From NCBI GenBank assembly GCA_022823085.1, contig JAJDXV010000013.1, positions 1-64,000 of the forward strand: a stretch of DNA of 64,000 nucleotides, in the 5' to 3' direction. Positions within the stretch are counted from its first letter, which is position 1. Each line of letters begins with the position of its first letter. The DNA is from Candidatus Poribacteria bacterium. GTDB taxonomy: Bacteria > Poribacteria > WGA-4E > WGA-3G. Both the position numbers and the translations under genes were made by a program. This document shows, in pieces, positions 14,806 to 59,808 of the stretch. The notes below the pieces were generated by a model. The model did not search any database. It saw only the letters and a list, made by a program, of their open reading frames with translations, and was not told the origin of the DNA.

Positions 14806-14983
14806 CATGGACAGGCATTGGGTGCTGGAGAGCGGCAATTTCTCCGAAACGGAACCGTTCGTGAGGCAAAAGCGGAATATGAGAAATCAAAAGAGATGCC
14901 CGCGCATTATGCCAAAGCTGAACTGGCAGAATAGGACGCAGTGGCTCGATATGAAAACGGAAAACCGACGAAATTGAGATAAT

Positions 14984-15104
14984 AGGACTTACGCATGCTG
15001 CTCTTTTGTAGCATAACCTGTTAGGTTGTGCCACGAGAACATCTATGTTTTTTTAGAGTTCTCCCTCTAACAGAGCGTCATATCGTCAAAATTACGTAAG
15101 TCCT
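14984..15104. repeat. MITE-like element copy A (121 bp, terminal inverted repeats)
   Basis: AGGACTTACG...CGTAAGTCCT termini; the reverse complement aligns with copies at 54020-54138 and 59664-59782. Confidence 0.8.
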
Positions 15105-15130
15105 GGAGAAAAAAAAAAGGAGATAGAAAA

Positions 15131-15853: not shown

Positions 15854-16828
15854 ATGCTGAAGAAAATTCTCGTCTTTAGTTTCTCTTTTATTGGTGACGC
15901 AGTGCTATCCACTGCTGTTATCCAACCGCTGCGAAGACACTTCCCAAATGCACATATTACCTTCCTCGTCGGACCGAGAGCGTCCGATCTCCTCGCCACT
16001 GAACCCAACATTGATGCCGTTATTGTCTATGACAACCGCGGCGAACACGCTGGTTGGCGCGGACGTTTGCGGCTTGTAAAAGCGTTGCGGCGTGATAAAT
16101 TCGATCTTGTTGTGAATTTACGGGACAGTCTTACGGCGCGGTGTATCGGTGTAAAACATTGGGGTATGGTGCGCGGGGAGAGCAATCGGCACGCTGTGAC
16201 CCGCTATCTGGAGGTACTCCAAAAGCGCGGTGTGGATACAACAGGCGCAAATCCGCGTTTAGAGTTGACTGAAAATGAACAGACGGCTGCACAGCGTTTT
16301 CTTGCCGAAGCCGGCTGGACATCAGAACGGTTGTTAATCGGTATCCATCCGGGCGGGAATTGGGTATACAAGTTGTGGGACGCAGGGAACTATGCGCGTG
16401 CGGCGAACGCTTTGGTAGAGAAACGGAACGCAGCGATTTTGCTTTTCGCCGGTCCGAATGAACGAGAACTCCAAGCACAAGTTGCGAATATAATGAACGT
16501 TCCGCCGATTCTTGTTCAAACGGAAAATCTACGACATCTCGCGGCGTTAATCTCTACCTGCGACGTATATATTGGGAATGACACGGGACCGATGCATATT
16601 GCGTCAGCAGTGGATACACCGGTAATCGCGCTTTTCGGTTCAACGAACCATCTTCGGAGCGGTCCCTACGGTGAGCAACATACAGTCGTGCAGAGCGGAA
16701 TGAATCTGGGGTGTAACCCGTGCCATCCGGGTCGGCACCCGGGGGGATGCGGTGCGGAGAGTTGTGAAGTGATTGCGGGGATCACTGTGGAGCAGGTATT
16801 GGCAGCAGTAGAGCGTTATACCTCTTGA
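15854..16828 (+). CDS. Glycosyltransferase family 9 (LPS heptosyltransferase-like)
   Basis: 'ILVFSFSFIGDAVLSTAVIQPLRRHFPNAHITFLVGPRA', 'IGIHPGGNWVYKLWD', 'CDVYIGNDTGPMHIASAVDTPVIALFGSTN'. Confidence 0.93.
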   Translation: MLKKILVFSFSFIGDAVLSTAVIQPLRRHFPNAHITFLVGPRASDLLATEPNIDAVIVYDNRGEHAGWRGRLRLVKALRRDKFDLVVNLRDSLTARCIGVKHWGMVRGESNRHAVTRYLEVLQKRGVDTTGANPRLELTENEQTAAQRFLAEAGWTSERLLIGIHPGGNWVYKLWDAGNYARAANALVEKRNAAILLFAGPNERELQAQVANIMNVPPILVQTENLRHLAALISTCDVYIGNDTGPMHIASAVDTPVIALFGSTNHLRSGPYGEQHTVVQSGMNLGCNPCHPGRHPGGCGAESCEVIAGITVEQVLAAVERYTS

Positions 16829-19632
16829 ATCTCAATTCCTAATGCTCGTAAATTTTCCTTAAGTTCCTCGTAAGCATTTTGTGAAATTTCACCATCAGAA
16901 GCTTTCAATTCAAATTGTATGTTCTGAAAATTAGACTGCAGTTGGCTGAGATATGGTGCTACATCGCTTACTTTCCCTTGAGGTAGTCTAAAACGGATGC
17001 CGATTGTTTTTTTTGAAACTCCATCATCGGCACTGCCATCTGGTGGATTCGGGTTCGGCGGATTAACAGTGTCACCATCTGGTGGATCCGGGTTCGGTGG
17101 ATCAACAATCAGGCCCGTACAAAGTTCTGTTTGGATAAGGACCTCACTATCACTCAACGTAATTGCTGGGGGTTCTTCCATGAAAGCCCGGGGAATGATT
17201 TTATCTCTGATTTTATCTCCAATTCCAAAAGTGCCTTGCCGAACACCTTCACGTATTGCTGCTTCCCACACATCGCGAAGTGGCCGAGGCTCGTTAGCAG
17301 ATTGCGGGTTGTATTGGAACGGCAGAGATGTTGAAATTGTCTCGTTTTCCTTCAAGTAGTTATGTAAGATTTCTTCTGATGTGATATTTTCTTGGACGAG
17401 ACTCGGTTGGATAATCACTTCAGCGTCAGCGAGAGTGACTTCCGGTAGTGCTGAGTTAAAAGCGCGTGGCACGAGCCTATCAGCTATTCTCTCACCGATT
17501 CCAAATATCTCGGTTTCAACACCTTTGCGAATACCTTCTATCCACGTCTGGCGTTGGACGCGTTTTTCGCCTGGGGTGCGGAGGCTCGTGTTGAGCAACT
17601 GGACGGTTGAGACGGTGTCATTATTTTGCAAATAAGCAATGGCGATGTTTCGGGGCCCGAGATTTGTGGCAATTACATTCTTTACACAGAGCAGGTCGTA
17701 GACCATTTCGTCAAATGGAGTTGTCATACCAACGACGGGAAGGCCGAGGTCTTCCTCAATAAATCCATCTTTTTGCGGAACGAGCACTACCCGATAATCC
17801 CGCCTTAACGCACTTTCTAAACTACTATTAGATTGCTTTAGTGCGTCATCTACCTCTCTTTTTTGGTTCCTTGATAAATTGAGGGAGGTGTCCTTTTTAA
17901 TCTCTTCGTAAGCGATGACTTTTCTCGTTTCTGCTTCGAGTTCAGTTGCTTTACCAGAGGCAGGGAGAATAAAAAAGAGGGTATTGCGATAGATACGTCG
18001 TGTCTCGCCTCGATTCTCTATAAGGTCTTGGCAGAATGCGTCATCGCGTCTATCTAAAACTATCAATTTCAGGGTTTCATCCTCGGGAACGGCCATACTA
18101 TCTTTGGGCAGGCAATGGATTTTGAGGCGTGCCTCACGACCCTGTTTGAAACTTTTGCTGAGTTGTGAGGCGACGCGTGCTTTGACGATTTCAGGGTCTA
18201 TGTTCTCCATTCGGGTTTGGACAATCCGGTTTAAGTTAGGCTGTGTGTCAAAGTAGGTTTTTCCGTTCTCGTTCCGGAGGAAAAAGAGATGTTCGGTGAG
18301 TCGGTTTTTTGCGGCATCAATGATAGCTGCAGGGTGTTCTAACACGGCGGCACTCCGTTTGATCTCCTCCAATGTTGCCCCGCGCTCCATGCCGCCTGTG
18401 AAAGAGTAAAGGAAGATAGCAGTTGCGGTGCGCGTGCCTAATGCCGAATGTTGATAGGTGCCTCCCAATATTATGTCAACAGCTTTAGTCCCGGCGGTGC
18501 GTCCCGTAATATCGTTGTTGATGATCCCGCGGTAGGGAGCATCAATGTGTTCTAAGAGTTCATCGCGTATATCATTGTCGGTGAGGTCAAAATCGGCGAG
18601 TGTGATGTAGGGGCGGTTTTTACCACTTGCCCGATGCACGACGCGTGAGAGAAACCTGAGAACACCGCGGGTTCGTTGGAAGTTCGGGAAACTACCCCAT
18701 CTTTTGTATAGGACATCGATGACTTCCGGCTGGAACGGGTAACTTTCCACGAATTGTTTGCGATATTCAGATTCTTGAATACCGGGTGGAAGGATATTCT
18801 CCTGTCTGGCGTATTTTGCGAATTCTTGGGTGCTCCGCTTGACTTCATTGGAATTGATCTCTGCGAAAAGCCGTTTCCGAATGATACTGGCGATTTCGGT
18901 GTCTTCAACGGGCGTGACCACGCGTTTCATGCGTGTGAGCAGCTCGGTGAAGAGAGGGAACTTCTCTGTGATAGGAGCAATTTCGCTTGCTTGTAGAGTC
19001 GCAACGAAAATGATACGCTTATTAGATGCGACTGCTTCTGTTAATGAAAGCATGAATGCTATGGTTTGTTCTGCTAATGTGCTTTGCTGTACAGATATTC
19101 CTGCGGCGCGTTCAAGGTAATTAAGCACCTCGTCCATTAAGATAAGGACCGGTTTTTGTGTGCGATTAAACATGTCGGTGAGACTATCACTACCGGGGGC
19201 GACTTGCGTTGTGAAATGCTGGAGGTTGCCTGTGAGCTGCCGTTCAATAGAAGCCCAGAAGGTGTCGCCATGTCCAGGATCCATCGCTGATCCGACCATC
19301 ACGACGGGGAGAGCGTTCCACTCTTTTGCTCTATGATAGAGTGCGATAAGGGTATGTGTTTTCCCACCGCCGAAGGGGGTCTGGAGTTGGATGATCGGAT
19401 CTTGGTTTCGCCGGTTGCGTCCTTTCAAACGACCTTCTACACCATTTAGCAGAGATGTCAATCCGTTTGTCTGGTGTGTCCTCTGAAAAAAACGCTGGGC
19501 GTTTCTGTACTCAAGGGGGCCCTCATTTTGAACGACTTGTCCAAGTCTCGCAGCATAAGTGTCTGCTGTAAAATTGCCTTTTAGTATATCGCTGTGCGGT
19601 TTCGCAATGGTTTCAAAAGCGGATAATCTCAT
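16816..19632 (-). CDS. DUF499-type P-loop ATPase, anti-phage-associated
   Basis: 938 aa; 'IIQLQTPFGGGKTHTLIALYH' Walker A, 'PVLILMDEVLNYLERAAG' Walker B; typical DUF499 N-terminus; duplicated C-terminal module and P/N/D/G-rich linker. Confidence 0.85.
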   Translation of the reverse strand: MRLSAFETIAKPHSDILKGNFTADTYAARLGQVVQNEGPLEYRNAQRFFQRTHQTNGLTSLLNGVEGRLKGRNRRNQDPIIQLQTPFGGGKTHTLIALYHRAKEWNALPVVMVGSAMDPGHGDTFWASIERQLTGNLQHFTTQVAPGSDSLTDMFNRTQKPVLILMDEVLNYLERAAGISVQQSTLAEQTIAFMLSLTEAVASNKRIIFVATLQASEIAPITEKFPLFTELLTRMKRVVTPVEDTEIASIIRKRLFAEINSNEVKRSTQEFAKYARQENILPPGIQESEYRKQFVESYPFQPEVIDVLYKRWGSFPNFQRTRGVLRFLSRVVHRASGKNRPYITLADFDLTDNDIRDELLEHIDAPYRGIINNDITGRTAGTKAVDIILGGTYQHSALGTRTATAIFLYSFTGGMERGATLEEIKRSAAVLEHPAAIIDAAKNRLTEHLFFLRNENGKTYFDTQPNLNRIVQTRMENIDPEIVKARVASQLSKSFKQGREARLKIHCLPKDSMAVPEDETLKLIVLDRRDDAFCQDLIENRGETRRIYRNTLFFILPASGKATELEAETRKVIAYEEIKKDTSLNLSRNQKREVDDALKQSNSSLESALRRDYRVVLVPQKDGFIEEDLGLPVVGMTTPFDEMVYDLLCVKNVIATNLGPRNIAIAYLQNNDTVSTVQLLNTSLRTPGEKRVQRQTWIEGIRKGVETEIFGIGERIADRLVPRAFNSALPEVTLADAEVIIQPSLVQENITSEEILHNYLKENETISTSLPFQYNPQSANEPRPLRDVWEAAIREGVRQGTFGIGDKIRDKIIPRAFMEEPPAITLSDSEVLIQTELCTGLIVDPPNPDPPDGDTVNPPNPNPPDGSADDGVSKKTIGIRFRLPQGKVSDVAPYLSQLQSNFQNIQFELKASDGEISQNAYEELKENLRALGIEIQEV

Positions 19633-19665: not shown

Positions 19666-22375
19666 TCAGAAGAGTTTTCCTTCTTCGGGTTGTTCCAATA
19701 GGTTTTGTACTTCGCGTTGGATAGTGGTTCGGTCGGCGATCCAACCTTCCAGCCATTGGCGTTCTTGACTTTCCGTTGATAGTGTTTTGCTAATTTGCTG
19801 GGCGATGTTCCATATCAGTTCGTTTAGGCCGATACCGTTTTTCGAGAGTCGTTGAATCATTTCGGGTCGGTTTCCGGAACGCCATAGAAGTAGCACGTGG
19901 TGCAGAACGTCAATCAATTCTTCACGCTTAGAGAGGTCGGTCTGTTCTCGTTCTTGTGGTCCTAATACGCGCACATCTGTTTTCTTCTGCTGGATAAAAC
20001 TGCCTTCTCCCCATTCCTCTGTGAGTTCAATGCCGAGGGATATCGCGAGTTCCCGGGCATCGTTAAAGATTACCGATTTTTCCTCGTGTTCCCGTCGCCA
20101 ACGGAGGTAGAACCGTGTGAGTTTTGTCCCTGCTATCCCCGCTTGTTCTCCATTAAAGCGCTCTAATATTTCTCGGATGTCTGCTATCATCCTATCTGCA
20201 CGAATCTCGGTATCATCGTCGTCAATTACTTGTTTGTATTTGCCAAACACCTCAATTCCGATGCCAATGGCGGCAATGAATAGATCTGCTCCAGAGAATC
20301 CCCATTCCCATAAAGTAAAGAGTTTCTGTTCAAGGTACGTCTCTAATTCTGCTTTAACGTCGTGATAGAGTCCCAAGGGTTGTCGTTCTTGTTTGCGCGC
20401 GACCATATAGATGGAAGAAGCAAGAGCTGCAGAATCATAACTACGCCAGCGAACTTTTTGTTCTGTATCAATGGGCCATGCTGCCGTAATCACAAGATTT
20501 GAAGCCAACAGGGCATTCATGAGAGTCTCCCATCCCTCCGTGGATTTGTGGGCATAGACAATCACCGCAATACCGTTAGGTTTTAGTACACGATGCATCT
20601 CCTGAAACGCTTTCGCTAGTCCTTCTTCAAACATTTTTTTTCCGGTTTCCAACCCACCTTCAAGGTGACCATAAGCCACGATCTCTCCATCTTTCGGAGT
20701 CAAGGTTTCCTTAAAGAGTTCCGGGTGATGCTCACCGATACTTCTTTTAAGCCACACATAAAAGAAATCGGAAAGATAAGCGTACGCAGCGTTATCGTAG
20801 TAGGGTGGATCTGTCAGCACTGCATCAAATGTGTTATCAGGATAGGGCAGATTTTGCGCGGAAGCCTGTTCCACGGTAGCCGTTGAATTTTTATCCATTT
20901 GGGATAGGTGCAGTAGTGGTTTTAAAAGGGTGTTTAATCGGGTTTTCCCTATATGCAATAGGTTCGCTTCCCCGTAATCCCAAACCATTGGTAACGTTGC
21001 CATCCCAAAAAGTTTAACAACAGATTCGTTGGTATTGCCCCATAAACAGATGTTTGAACCTTTATCAGCAATACGATCCAACCAAAGGCCCAAGTAAGTT
21101 GAGACGGCTTTCGCATATTCGGTATCTAATCCTTGCGAAAGCATCCCCGAATGTGCCTCCCGAATCTTTTCTATTAGGGTGACAAATGTTAATTGCTGGC
21201 GTGCATTGAAAAGTTTACCATAGGTATTTAGGTTGTAATTGTGAATAGAAATTCCGCGTTCTGCTCCGGCACCTTTTATTTTAGGTGTTGGCTCATCTGG
21301 TACAGGGTCAAGTCCCCACTTGGTTCTGAGACGTTCTCGTTTTTCAGAGAGGCGTTCTTGTACCTTGTTGAAAATTTCCAGATCTTTATCCGTAGCGAGT
21401 CGGTACTGTTTGCCTTTCTGTTTTGAATGTTGTGTTACCACAGCCAACAACCTTTCGTCGGCTTCATCGTTTTGGAAGAGTTGTTTCGTCTGATTGGCAG
21501 TGATCGTGCTTTTACAAAGCGGACAAGTGGGGATGGCGCGGGTGATTGTGCCATTATTAGGATCGAAACCGTCCGGTATAGCATCATACCCTGTGCCAAC
21601 GATGCGAAAAATGATATGGCCATCGGCATCGCAAGAGACATTCCCATCGGTATTATAAGGACAAAGTGCTATTTTCTTCTCCTTCTTTTTCTTCTTAGCT
21701 TTTTTGTTCGCCAACCAAAATTGCTTTATCAGTGGAATGATAGCGTTGCAGTTGAGGTTTTGACAGGGGAGGGTACGTGCCCAGATATAGGCGTAGACTT
21801 CAGATTCGTCAGGTTCTATCGGATAGAAGGGGGATAATTCTTCTGTTAATTGTGCAAGGATTTTATGCCCCCAATTCTTGACATCGTTGTAGAGACGAGG
21901 TCCACATTTTTGTGGGTATTCTAAGGTACATTTCTGAATGAGGACGGCCAGGGGATTGAGGTCACAGGAATAGGTTTCGCAGCCGAGACGTTGTGCTTCT
22001 AACGGAATAGCACCACGTCCGCCGAAGGGGTCCAGCACTTTTGCTGGTTTGCCGCCATGTGATTTTAGGATGCGTTCTTTTGCTTCTCCAACCCAATAAG
22101 AGCCTGCTGAATTGACATTTTCCCATTTTGAGAGTTCAGCGATAAAATTTAGTTCATCAATAATGGTGATGTACTTATCATAAGTTGAGTGGGGGGGGGG
22201 GGGCAAGTGCCGTATATGTTGTCGCGCGAGAGGGGCCGAGCGGTCGGCTTGCCCAATAGATATGGAGGCCAGTGATTTGACGTTTGTATTTATCGCGGCG
22301 TCCCTGTTCGCTAACCTCCTCGACAGGGAAGGCAACTTCAATGATACGTTTGTTGTTATTCATGCATTCATCCAT
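19666..22375 (-). CDS. DUF1156-type adenine DNA methyltransferase, split by a frameshift at a 13-nt poly-G (poly-C on coding strand) tract
   Basis: Catalytic part 'DPFGGRGAIPLEAQRLG', 'FDAVLTDPPYYDN' in the 891-aa ORF (19666..22341); the N-terminus 'KRIIEVAFPVEEVSEQGRRDKYKRQITGLHIYWASRPLGPSRATTYTALAPPP' is in another frame (22178..22375). A 12-nt tract would fuse the two. Confidence 0.85.
22191..22203 (+). repeat. Homopolymer G13 tract within the DUF1156 methyltransferase gene
   Basis: Direct reading: ...gagt-GGGGGGGGGGGGG-caag... Confidence 0.95.
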
Positions 22376-22465: not shown

Positions 22466-23362
22466 TTAAAGCGTCAAAAAACCAATAATTTTTTTAAACA
22501 AATTATAAAGGGAATTTCCAAAAGCCCCGGCCAATCCTCCTATGATTAGAGTTCCCAAAATGTATCTGTGTTTTCGTACAGTGTCTGTTAAACTTTTGTA
22601 CTCAACAATCGGGAAAATCCATCTGGCATAGTCAAACAGTATTTTGAACACGTTTAGCATCAAGAAAAATAAACAAACATAGGCCCCATTTTGGACAAAT
22701 ACAGAAAATCCTCCAAAGATACTGTTTATCAATCCTGATGACTTGTAGGCCATCCAAAATGCGAATGGGATCCCTACGAGAAGAAGAAGCAAATCATAAA
22801 CGCTATGTCTATGAAAAAACCTGCGACGGGTTCTTTTTTCTTTGATAAAATCTGTGACTTTACGATATACGCCGCTGACCCAATCAGAATTTAGACCGGT
22901 AACAAAAATGTTGCTTGCATTTGGCGTAGATATGGAGGGGGACAGTGATAGATTGAAAAGTTCGGGTTTGGTGAAATCCAACAGCAGTTCAAAGCGGTTC
23001 CTGGGGGACCAATTATGTGAGTTTTTTAAATCCAATTCGCTGTTGATGTAAAGTGTTTTAACCTTATCTGGAAAACGAGGGGAACTGAACACTGCTGGAA
23101 TTGTACCAGAGAGCACCTTATCATCTGTTCCACGCACGGTTACCTGTAATTCAAATCCTGACCTTAGGATTTCTCTATCTGTAAGAATTTGCTCCATAGG
23201 TCGATCGAGAGGTGTATAATTAGCTATTTCCTCTTCTGCCGCTGCGTGACTTGACTCTTGTAGTATTTCACAAAGTATTCTTAAATCGTCTTTAGAAAAG
23301 GCACAAGCAGTAATTTGCTGTGACAATTCTGTTGTCAATATCGCTCGGTTTTGTTGCCCCAT
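22466..23362 (-). CDS. Uncharacterised membrane protein in candidate defence locus
   Basis: 298 aa; soluble N-terminal half, then hydrophobic segments 'YDLLLLLVGIPFAFWMAY', 'GAYVCLFFLMLNVFKILF', 'YILGTLIIGGLAGAFGNSLYNLF'. Confidence 0.75.
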   Translation of the reverse strand: MGQQNRAILTTELSQQITACAFSKDDLRILCEILQESSHAAAEEEIANYTPLDRPMEQILTDREILRSGFELQVTVRGTDDKVLSGTIPAVFSSPRFPDKVKTLYINSELDLKNSHNWSPRNRFELLLDFTKPELFNLSLSPSISTPNASNIFVTGLNSDWVSGVYRKVTDFIKEKRTRRRFFHRHSVYDLLLLLVGIPFAFWMAYKSSGLINSIFGGFSVFVQNGAYVCLFFLMLNVFKILFDYARWIFPIVEYKSLTDTVRKHRYILGTLIIGGLAGAFGNSLYNLFKKIIGFLTL

Positions 23363-23863: not shown

Positions 23864-26800
23864 CTAAATGAGTTCTCCGCTTCCCGTTATCTCCGAAAGT
23901 GGAACTTGATACCTAACCTCTGTGACCTGCCGGACTGCACTTATCTGTTCGGCAGGATTCTGAATAATGTAGAGTTCCGGTTGCGTTGCAGCATTGAGAA
24001 CGACGTAAAGGAAATAATCATCTTTGAGTTGTTTTGCTCTGAACCATTCGTTGGAAGTGAGAACGATAGGCGCGCGGTCTGAGCGCGCTTTCACTTCAAT
24101 ACATCGGATTTTTCCATCTGGAGTTTTTGACCGTAAATCAAAACCGAGATTTTCTGCTGAGACATCCTCTACAGTGCAATTTTGTGCTTTTTCATAACAA
24201 GTAGCGCGCTCCATACCAATCTGTTCAATTTCCAATCGGTTGTGCATTGCAGGCTTCGTTTCTATACCATCAGTAGCGGGTCTAACGCGAATTGCACCGA
24301 CGAAAGTAGGCGGTTTTCTGGAGAGTGTTACCTCTTGCCGACAGGATTTTTCCAGTTTCTCTTTTTCTCCTTCGTAATGGTGTTTTTGTTGTTGTTTGTT
24401 CTGCGTGGCGCGTCTGACATCCTCACCGCTTTCGGATCGCGTCCCAAGCTCAAGCAATTCACCGTCCAATTTAAGGATAAGTTGCTCTAATGAAGCAATA
24501 CCATATCTTCTTTTGATAGCTACCTGCCTTTTCCGTTCTTCTGTGAGTTCTTGCTTATATTGATCCAAGTGGAAACGCAGTTCTGAACTAACTTTTGCTT
24601 CAAGTTCTTGTATCTGGATCGGTTCTGATGTAGGATCAACTTCCGATTCTTGGAAGTCCCAGATGAGTACTGGATTGATCCGTTCTACAGTCTCAGAATT
24701 TTTGGGAAGGTAAAAAGAAAATAATTGTTTTCCGGTAACTGTATCGGTTCCATCTCGAATTTCACCTTCATAGAATGCGATAACTCCATTGAATTTGGCA
24801 TCGGGGTCTTCAAAGCATGATCCAGCTTTAAGATCCTCGGTGTATTCTTGTTCTACGTACCGAAGGGTTGCTTCAAAAAGCGGATGTCCAAAAGAGATAA
24901 ACTCAATTGATGAATCTGTAGAAGCTTGCGCCTTATCAAACGTCACTTTTGCATATTTTTTTCCAACTACACTTGGATACATCTGTCGGAACTGTTCGTC
25001 TTGACTCATTCGTACTATTTGGGTTGGGATACGAGGAATGCTGAAAAATTCATCTCCGCGCTGACGAAGTTGGGCATTATGAATTTCTAAGGTTTTACGG
25101 AAGAATTCACGTGTGTATTCGGGAATGAGTCCGTGTTCACGTGCCTTTTGCTGGAGTTCATTCACTTGCGGCAAGTTAATGAAAGGTGAGACGAGTGTAT
25201 CTTGGTTAAAATCTGTAAAGAGGTCAAGCTGTTCTGGATCAAGAGAGGCTTCAATTTCGTCAAGGAGTTGGGCGTGGTCGCGGGTACTCGCAGCGGCTTC
25301 AAGCATGAGTTGCGCAAGATTTCTCTTGGGAAAAAGTTCTCCAATAACATCATAGACGCGATCTCTGCCGAGTGCATCTCGGATGGTATCAAGTTTTGCA
25401 AAGAGGCGGTTAAAAACAGCCCCTTCCCGGGTATCGGACGCTACAAGGTTGATAACATGAACCTCTTTTTTTTGTCCATAGCGATGAATTCGTCCCATCC
25501 GTTGCTCAAGACGGTTCGGATTCCACGGTAAGTCGTAGTTAATCATCAAGTGACAGAACTGGAGATTAATACCCTCGCCTGCAGCCTCCGTTGCGATGAG
25601 GATCTGCGTTTCCTCTTCAAATGTTTGTTGTGTTTTTACCCGCTTTTCGTGTGGCATTTTTCCATGGATGACAGATACAGAAAAACCCCACGCCTCTACC
25701 TTCTGGGCTAAGTAATCCAGCGTATCAAAGTACTCAGTGAAGATGAGAATCTTTTCATTTGGGTGTTGCCCGTTTAGTTCATCAAGTGCTTTTTTGAGTT
25801 GTTGTAGCTTAATTTCTTTTTCACTATCAATAATCTGTTGTGCGTTACGTTCAAGGTGTTTGAGCGTCTCGATTTCATCTTCTAATTCCTCCCTGTTTTC
25901 AGCAACGGAGAGGACTTCCCATTGCTGCTCCCGCTCCCAGCGTTCGGCTTCACTGAGATCTTCTATTTCGTCGCGCTGCTGCTCGGTTGGTGCTGTATCC
26001 ACTTGAAGTGTGACACTCTCAAGTAATTCTGTTAGACGTTTTTGTCGGCGTTGGAGTGAGATGCAGAGCGCGTGCGTACTGGAGGCAAGTCGTCTTTGCA
26101 AGATAACCAGGGCAAAAGCGATGTTGTTTCGCTTCTGTGAATCCTCAGAAAATCGGTTGTACTGCTCACGGATGTACTCGGAGAGCGCGTTATAGAGTTC
26201 CATTTCTCGTTCTGATTCTGCTCCGAGGCGGAATGGTTTCGTCTGAACGTGCCGTGGTAAGAAAAGTTTTCTTCCTTCAAAATCTTTTAGATCTTCCTTA
26301 ACCCGTCGAATAAAGAGAGGATTGTCCCGATTGTTGATAGATTCTCGAATTTGGGTTGCATCTGCGAAGAAGCCGGGTTCAAGAAGATCAAGGAAAAGTC
26401 GGAAGTTTTCAGGGTCTCCTCTATGTGGTGTCGCCGTGAGAAAGAGAAGATGTGTGGTGCTGTTTGATAAACATTCACCAAGTTCGTAACGCTTTGTTTT
26501 GTCAGTTTTGTCTCCGTACTGATAGGCAGCCATCTTATGTGCCTCATCAACAATAATCAGATCGAAATGGGTATTAGCGATTGTACCGCGAATTTCATCC
26601 TGTCGAGCAAAATCCATAGAGGTAATCAACTGTTGTTCGCGATTCCATACGTTTTCATGCGGATAGGCATTAACGAGGCCGCGTGTAACTTGCGTAAAGT
26701 TCTCCTCAAATTTCACCTTCATCTCTTGAGTCCACTGTGTGACCAGGTGTCCGGGAGAAACGATCAAGATACGTTTGACCTGATTTCGGAGTTTTAGCTC

Positions 26801-27232
26801 CTTCGCGATGAGCCCTGACATAATTGTTTTACCCGCGCCCGGATCATCAGCGATAAGGAAGCGAATACGCGGTTGCTTGATAACTTGCCATACCGCTTCA
26901 ATCTGGTGTGGCAGCGGATCAACTTTAGAGACACTAATAGCAAGGGTTGGATTGTAGAGCGCAGCATATCGATACCGTTTCGCCTCAAGCGCAAGGAAAG
27001 CACAGCGTGCCTTGCCAGTAAAATCTACTTGTGACTGCACAACCTGCAATTTGTTTGCTTCCGTTGCTGTGATTTCCTCGTTGATAGGTAGTTGTGAATT
27101 TGTTAGGGTACCGACGATATGAAAACTACCGTCAGGAAGTGGCTGGTAAGCAAAAATTTGGACAGGTTCGGACCATAGGGGGCCTTCAATTATTGTGCCA
27201 TAGGTGATATTAGAAGTCATGATTTTCTCCAC
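23864..27232 (-). CDS. SNF2/DEAD-type helicase with C-terminal DUF3883-like (PD-(D/E)XK-like) domain; DrmD-like
   Basis: 1122 aa; 'DDPGAGKTIMSGLIAKEL', 'IIVDEAHKM', 'LFLTATPHRGDPENF', 'GEGINLQFCHLMINYDLPWNPNRLEQRMGRIHRYGQ'; C-terminal 'GFDLRSKTPDGKIRCIEVKAR'. Start may be 27220. Confidence 0.88.
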   Translation of the reverse strand: MEKIMTSNITYGTIIEGPLWSEPVQIFAYQPLPDGSFHIVGTLTNSQLPINEEITATEANKLQVVQSQVDFTGKARCAFLALEAKRYRYAALYNPTLAISVSKVDPLPHQIEAVWQVIKQPRIRFLIADDPGAGKTIMSGLIAKELKLRNQVKRILIVSPGHLVTQWTQEMKVKFEENFTQVTRGLVNAYPHENVWNREQQLITSMDFARQDEIRGTIANTHFDLIIVDEAHKMAAYQYGDKTDKTKRYELGECLSNSTTHLLFLTATPHRGDPENFRLFLDLLEPGFFADATQIRESINNRDNPLFIRRVKEDLKDFEGRKLFLPRHVQTKPFRLGAESEREMELYNALSEYIREQYNRFSEDSQKRNNIAFALVILQRRLASSTHALCISLQRRQKRLTELLESVTLQVDTAPTEQQRDEIEDLSEAERWEREQQWEVLSVAENREELEDEIETLKHLERNAQQIIDSEKEIKLQQLKKALDELNGQHPNEKILIFTEYFDTLDYLAQKVEAWGFSVSVIHGKMPHEKRVKTQQTFEEETQILIATEAAGEGINLQFCHLMINYDLPWNPNRLEQRMGRIHRYGQKKEVHVINLVASDTREGAVFNRLFAKLDTIRDALGRDRVYDVIGELFPKRNLAQLMLEAAASTRDHAQLLDEIEASLDPEQLDLFTDFNQDTLVSPFINLPQVNELQQKAREHGLIPEYTREFFRKTLEIHNAQLRQRGDEFFSIPRIPTQIVRMSQDEQFRQMYPSVVGKKYAKVTFDKAQASTDSSIEFISFGHPLFEATLRYVEQEYTEDLKAGSCFEDPDAKFNGVIAFYEGEIRDGTDTVTGKQLFSFYLPKNSETVERINPVLIWDFQESEVDPTSEPIQIQELEAKVSSELRFHLDQYKQELTEERKRQVAIKRRYGIASLEQLILKLDGELLELGTRSESGEDVRRATQNKQQQKHHYEGEKEKLEKSCRQEVTLSRKPPTFVGAIRVRPATDGIETKPAMHNRLEIEQIGMERATCYEKAQNCTVEDVSAENLGFDLRSKTPDGKIRCIEVKARSDRAPIVLTSNEWFRAKQLKDDYFLYVVLNAATQPELYIIQNPAEQISAVRQVTEVRYQVPLSEITGSGELI

Positions 27233-53959: not shown

Positions 53960-54019
53960 TTTTAAATTATTAAATCTGGTCACCGTTCCACTACGTTCTA
54001 CGGTGGTTTTCGATTAAGC
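53960..54019. repeat. Intergenic hairpin repeat, second copy of the 43990-44045 family
   Basis: tttaaattattaaatctggtcaccgttccactacgttctacggtggttttcgattaag. Confidence 0.7.
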
Positions 54020-54138
54020 AGGACTTACGCAATTTTAACTGCAGCCCGTTCTGTTAGATGAGATTTCTTGGAAAACACAGCGTTATAGTGCCACAGGCTA
54101 ACAGCCTATGCTACAAAAGAGCCGCATGCGTAAGTCCT
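54020..54138. repeat. MITE-like element copy B (119 bp)
   Basis: AGGACTTACGCA...TGCGTAAGTCCT termini; internal 'tgccacaggctaacagcctatgctacaaaagagc'. Confidence 0.85.
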
Positions 54139-54180
54139 ATTAAGTTAACCGAATTTGAGTGATGTAAATTTTGTTTTCCT

Positions 54181-59516: not shown

Positions 59517-59663
59517 TTTATTTCTCCAACGGGTTCCGGCATACGGCGTGTGCCTACTATTTTTTCTGAACTATTGTTCCGTCCAATCTAAAATTACGGG
59601 TATGTAATTTGGTTATAGGCGAAGCGACCTCACCGCTACGATCAAATGATAAATGTCCCTAAC

Positions 59664-59782
59664 AGGATTTACGCAATTTTGGCTGTAGGCGGTTTTGTTA
59701 GATGAGATTTCTCGGAAAACATAGCATTTTGGTGGCACAAACTGGAAGTTTGTGGTACAAAAGAGCATCATGTGTAAATCCT
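59664..59782. repeat. MITE-like element copy C (119 bp)
   Basis: AGGATTTACGCA...TGTGTAAATCCT; internal 'ttttgttagatgagatttctcggaaaacatag' matches copy B. Confidence 0.85.
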
Positions 59783-59808
59783 ACGTAAAAATAAGGGCGG
59801 ACAGTCCA

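Follow-up and report, generated by a model that had tools for sequence, protein, structure and literature searches.

Phase variation is best known from pathogens, and we found no report of it from Poribacteria in the open-access literature, an absence that is no proof. In Bordetella, the promoters of fim2, fim3 and fimX contain a C-stretch together with a conserved fim box, and changes in tract length alter transcription (PMC1891110). Repeat tracts also occur within coding regions: in the type III mod genes of the phasevarions of Neisseria, Haemophilus, Moraxella and Streptococcus suis, a tract in the DNA methyltransferase gene sets the reading frame, and several such methylases can be present per genome (PMC11868660). 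In Campylobacter, G/C homopolymers serve as contingency loci both inside and between surface-related genes (PMC8355987). The Hma system has been described as a candidate defense system consisting of a helicase, a methylase and an ATPase (PMC8565338). Here we describe a C tract in the hmaB gene of a sponge-associated member of the Poribacteria, which is very probably a simple-sequence contingency locus and part of a lineage-wide set of C tracts with a common adjoining box. This lineage-wide set has not been reported previously.

The window, i.e. the complete stretch of 64,000 nucleotides that was analyzed, represents contig C33 of G000, a 5.2-Mb genome of a Candidatus Poribacteria sponge symbiont. 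Genes matching HmaA, HmaB and HmaC are adjacent (Table 1), and helicase, methylase and ATPase thus lie in one operon, as in the Hma system known from PADLOC and the literature (PMC8565338). Judged by these matches, the broken methylase is the HmaB component of an Hma defense operon. Unlike in the described system, an extra gene, whose product has neither a Pfam nor a PADLOC match, separates hmaA and hmaB, and hmaB is itself interrupted by the putative phase-variation tract. Two kinds of repeats were observed elsewhere in the window. Bases 1-141 recur on the same contig (L059, 11608-11748) with 97.9% identity, and a dispersed repeat of ~120 bp is found at 14979-15105, 54016-54142 and 59663-59784, with copies that are 71-83% identical; the latter repeat also occurs near the C-tract loci L048, L050, L052 and L053.

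The tract in hmaB (22191-22203) is the only run of at least eight identical bases in the window, and in a shuffle control as many 8-mer matches were obtained in 1 of 100 shuffles of the window. From its start at ATG 22375 (or 22363), the N-terminal ORF extends through a match to DUF1156 (Pfam PF06634, E 4.9e-10) to a TGA at 22180-22178, just beyond the tract. In the other frame, the homologous part of the methylase body starts at the tract (~22190) and extends over ~800 amino acids to the stop at 19666, without any other stop in between. The mononucleotide tract therefore sets the reading frame of hmaB, as expected of a contingency locus. An earlier note on this DNA had placed the break between the DUF1156 N-terminus and the catalytic body at exactly these 13 consecutive G/C, and both the ORFs and the Pfam match bear this out; the positions that it gave, 22178-22375, coincide with the N-terminal ORF, and its calculation that 12 or 15 bases would restore a single full-length ORF is correct. 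As no ATG, GTG or TTG is present in the body frame between the tract and GTG 22038, no full methylase is to be expected from the assembled, frame-broken allele. The assembled C13 allele is OFF and does not provide the intact single-protein methylase that would be expected of a working Hma system. We propose that this out-of-frame condition is a reversible OFF state.

Table 1. Coordinates of the hma genes, the C tract and the adjoining motif in the window.
Feature	Position	Strand	Evidence
HmaC, DUF499 ATPase	16816..19632	-	PADLOC HmaC, E 4.2e-106
HmaB methyltransferase body, other frame	19666..22341	-	ORF and PADLOC HmaB, E 4e-99
Tract-adjacent motif ACTCAACTTATGATAAGTA, two mismatches to the box consensus	22172..22190	-	Model match 22166-22198, E 4.1e-5
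HmaB N-terminal fragment, DUF1156	22178..22375	-	ORF and Pfam
C13 homopolymer tract, proposed slippage site	22191..22203	- (G13 on +)	Sequence
298-aa protein with hydrophobic segments, between hmaA and hmaB	22466..23362	-	ORF
HmaA, SNF2/DEAD helicase with NOV_C domain	23864..27232	-	PADLOC HmaA, E 5.2e-205

At the same linker, hmaB of G017 has a C8 tract and hmaB of G010, a single-contig genome of 5.85 Mb, a C7 tract, and in both species the body is out of frame with the N-terminus. The frame is shifted in one direction in G000 and G017 and in the opposite direction in G010. The hmaB gene of G011 has a linker without tract and is in frame, as are the tract-free genes of the more distant G032, G044 and G014; in G009 and G002, contigs end near the site. 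Variation of tract length among orthologous copies, which is a further hallmark of contingency loci, is thus observed between three species (C13, C8 and C7), and all three sampled tract alleles are OFF. According to the earlier note, a switch would be refuted by relatives that lack any homopolymer at this site, and the outcome is mixed in this respect: G011 is tract-free and in frame, but G017 and G010 do have the tract.

The main alternative raised at the outset was a homopolymer error in sequencing or assembly, with a true tract that is in frame and a gene that is always intact. Long homopolymers are error-prone, and the count of 13 is the call of one assembly only, without reads or other independent support and without coverage of any mixture of lengths within the population. 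An error could explain this exact count. It does not explain, however, the conserved recurrence of the tract, the motif or the overall pattern: the C8 and C7 tracts are short, easy to call and still out of frame, and the same arrangement is present in other methylase genes across MEGAHIT-, SPAdes- and single-chromosome-style assemblies. We therefore regard an error as an improbable source of the frame break. In the long-read-style genomes G010, G018, G021 and G028, no G run of at least ten bases was found, which could reflect either biology or homopolymer compression in assembly. Sponge symbiont genomes of the Sanger project are described as HiFi-based, but the accession of G010 was not seen among them.

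Judging from substitution ratios, strong purifying selection acts on both sides of the break (dN/dS ~0.05-0.13). Between the broken alleles of G000, G017 and G010, pairwise dN/dS was 0.054-0.098 for the body and 0.055-0.115 for the N-terminus, the latter for computable pairs only. Comparison of the body with the intact G011 allele gave 0.10-0.13, similar to the values among the broken alleles. dS was high and near saturation, so that the ratios are approximate. The gene is thus retained under selection although it is often out of frame, as would be demanded of a contingency locus. The low dN/dS on both sides indicates that the two halves are selected as one working protein across these species, which argues against a pseudogene and also against a lone sequencing error. 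A decaying pseudogene, in which a chance indel broke hmaB, would fit the OFF state of all three tract alleles, but no other stop was found in the ~800 body codons of any of the three species, which share 68-71% identity. In view of this and of the dN/dS values, we give hardly any credence to decay.

All in-gene tracts that we recognized are located in DNA methylases of defense systems. The set comprises 12 alleles, namely hmaB from three species, three alleles of a type IIG restriction-modification gene, four of one type III methyltransferase (MTase) and two further type III MTases of G000, one of which has a box-like sequence upstream instead. The reading frame is maintained in three of the 12 alleles and lost in nine, close to the one third in frame that unconstrained variation in length would give. 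The type IIG gene is in frame with C13 and out of frame with C7 and C9 in three species, and its tract-free homologues in G031, G025, G018 and G007 are in frame with a short linker. Among four species, the type III MTase is out of frame with C14, C11 and C9 and in frame with C10; tract-free, intact homologues with a short linker are present in G025, G032 and G006 (90, 86 and 77% identity, respectively). In the tract-bearing genes of both types, the linker contains the C run and the box and is longer by tens of bp than in the tract-free homologues.

The type III methyltransferase on contig C129 has a C12 tract and is out of frame; it is also cut by an apparent insertion sequence (L056, ~4966 onward), and its end matches the ends of contigs C88 and C21. 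On contig C88 of G000 (L053, 500-2611), the N-terminus of a PLD/SNF2 helicase continues in frame into the type IIG restriction-modification gene; in other genomes, the two are ~4-5 kb apart. The joint is either a deletion fusion or a misassembly. A tract inside the helicase was rejected, since the C88 tract lies in the adjoining type IIG gene, to which the helicase is fused here.

The high proportion of out-of-frame alleles (9/12) and the conservation of both halves might also be reconciled with programmed expression, in which some full-length HmaB would arise without genetic switching, either by ribosomal frameshifting or by slippage of transcription on the C run. However, because the register differs between species, with G000 and G017 shifted one way and G010 the other, a fixed-direction ribosomal frameshift cannot serve all of them and was rejected. 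In addition, the same tract-plus-box is present in intergenic DNA, where frameshifting is irrelevant. Programmed expression is thus a very unlikely substitute for genetic switching.

The hmaB tract belongs to a family of similar sites. G000 contains 14 C/G tracts of at least ten bases, one of them, with a length of 21, at a contig end. In an alignment on the C run, about ten of the 14 show a common sequence after the run, [A/G]CTT[T/A]ACA(A/T)nn(A/G)(A/T)TAAGTATT. In the 5.2 Mb of G000 there are six copies of the exact core CTTNACANNNNNTAAGTA, and all six adjoin a C run, which is interrupted by a T in one case. These two counts (10/14 tracts and 6/6 core copies) are the unbiased facts about the motif, since the sequences of the tract-plus-box model were chosen by the motif and the conservation of its columns is therefore partly by construction. 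At an E-value of 0.5, the model matched 36 of 37 members of the genus; at 0.001, it matched 34 of 38 members of the genus, 1/1 and 4/18 genomes of two sister genera and 0/26 genomes from other families. When GTDB R220 was searched for the exact pattern, 42 matches were returned, 41 of them in Candidatus Poribacteria, and these relatives with the tract motif come from sponges. The 42nd match, contig L178 of Gammaproteobacteria SB0670_bin_2, originates from the same sponge data set, has a tract, box and flank of the Poribacteria type and is probably misbinned. In the window, the match with two mismatches is not significant alone; it gains weight by lying at the tract and by belonging to the family.

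The upstream flank is weakly conserved, 40 of 76 sites having TTAAC at a distance of up to 30 bp; TTAACAAGC or TTAAC often precedes tract and box. In G033 and G002 (L240, L248 and L227), a shorter box variant was observed, ATGTTAAGTA or similar. In G033 it is common to two different methylase genes, a hint that the module has lineage-specific subtypes. The C21 run near a contig end (L051, 44-64; contig C77 of G000) has only a partial box and may be real or an assembly artefact.

Intergenic tracts lie on the sense strand, most often ~170-200 bp upstream of the start of a co-directional gene. The nearest downstream gene encodes a member of one related set of secreted LRR/cadherin proteins in 20 of 44 cases and a DUF4007 protein, named SspB of a phosphorothioation defense system by PADLOC, in 8 of 44; some of the remaining genes resemble those of lipoproteins or exported proteins. 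LRR/cadherin surface proteins are often proposed as mediators of recognition by the sponge. Between species, orthologous tracts upstream of sspB range from C8 to C17. We do not claim a sigma-70-type promoter in the box, with TTTACA as -35 element, because a -10-like hexamer was seen in some sspB-upstream copies only. An RNA hairpin formed by RCTTA and TAAGY is not claimed either, since the outer R-Y pair does not covary (A-T 40, G-T 26, A-C 7, G-C 2).

The recurrence of the same core in unrelated contexts raises the question whether tract and box constitute a mobile mini-element, i.e. a transposable or copied cassette of ~50 bp that spread into linkers and promoters, with switching as a by-product. 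The longer linkers of the tract-bearing type IIG and type III genes and the lineage subtypes, such as the shorter box in two different genes of G033, would be in line with such spread. On the other hand, we found neither terminal inverted repeats nor target duplications, conservation on the upstream side is weak and the targets are far from random, being defense methylases and surface genes with a fixed orientation. When tract-free and tract-bearing homologues were compared by eye, linker lengths differed, and neither clean boundaries nor duplications were seen. A mini-element as such seems rather unlikely to us, although it is partly compatible with a contingency locus.

Any function of the box is inferred. 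As the box is common to promoter-like and in-gene tracts, it seems to go with the tract rather than with transcription. It may either help the tract to vary or have spread together with the tract, and we cannot choose between these possibilities. It is a tentative suggestion, about which we have more doubt than confidence, that the 19-bp box serves specifically as a cis element in tract switching, for example by binding a lineage-specific protein that promotes or steers changes in the length of the C run, within a modular cassette that could spread to promoters and to coding regions of defense methylases. MutS1 and MutL were present in 6/6 genomes tested, indicating that the tracts are not a result of lost mismatch repair, and this cause of tract instability was rejected.

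For the contingency locus that we favor, we envisage that slipped-strand mispairing would add or remove C in the hmaB tract, although slippage within populations is inferred. A change in the number of C would bring the 800-aa methylase body into or out of frame with the DUF1156 N-terminus, so that individual cells may randomly have the HmaB methylase, and probably the whole Hma system, ON or OFF; the switching of methylation and defense is an inference as well. In linkers of methylase genes, the C tract and the 19-bp box [A/G]CTTnACAnnnnnTAAGTA would act on the reading frame, whereas the intergenic copies upstream of LRR/cadherin genes and sspB are predicted to act on transcription, an effect for which we have no direct observation. 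The proposal of the earlier note that the tract is a phase-variable ON/OFF switch is therefore strongly supported by comparison, through tracts of different length at the same site in three species, purifying selection on both sides of the break and, throughout the genus, sister tracts in other defense methylases and before surface genes, but population data are lacking.

In common with the Bordetella fim promoters, the intergenic copies combine a C-stretch that varies in length with an adjoining conserved box, upstream of genes for surface proteins (PMC1891110). The Poribacteria box is different, however, is located on the side of the tract that faces the gene, recurs at dozens of loci across the lineage and is found inside methylase coding regions as well, and we have no transcription data. 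With the phasevarion systems, the in-gene tracts share the control of frame in the coding region of DNA methyltransferases and the presence of several such methylases per genome (PMC11868660), but the methylase in our case, HmaB, has a DUF1156 domain and belongs to an Hma operon, and its host is a sponge symbiont that has not been cultured. G/C homopolymers within and between surface-related genes are a common feature with Campylobacter (PMC8355987), where the gene classes differ from the secreted LRR/cadherin proteins, SspB and Hma found here. The best reading of the wider finding is a lineage-specific C-tract module with a conserved box, located in defense methylases and before surface genes, that resembles the fim C-stretch of Bordetella and is found inside genes as well. 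To our knowledge, no common flanking motif is known for type III mod or phasevarion tracts, and we know of no genus-wide conserved box adjoining the Campylobacter tracts. A common box beside the tracts is thus unusual and raises the question whether they vary by chance slippage or whether a cis element promotes their instability.

For annotation, the results are a warning that, in these genomes, many methylase genes with a broken frame probably represent switch states rather than pseudogenes. An uncultured animal symbiont appears to randomize several phage-defense methylases together with LRR/cadherin surface proteins. If this is true, each sponge would harbor mosaics of defense and surface states, which would be measurable in existing long-read metagenomes, methylation calls included.
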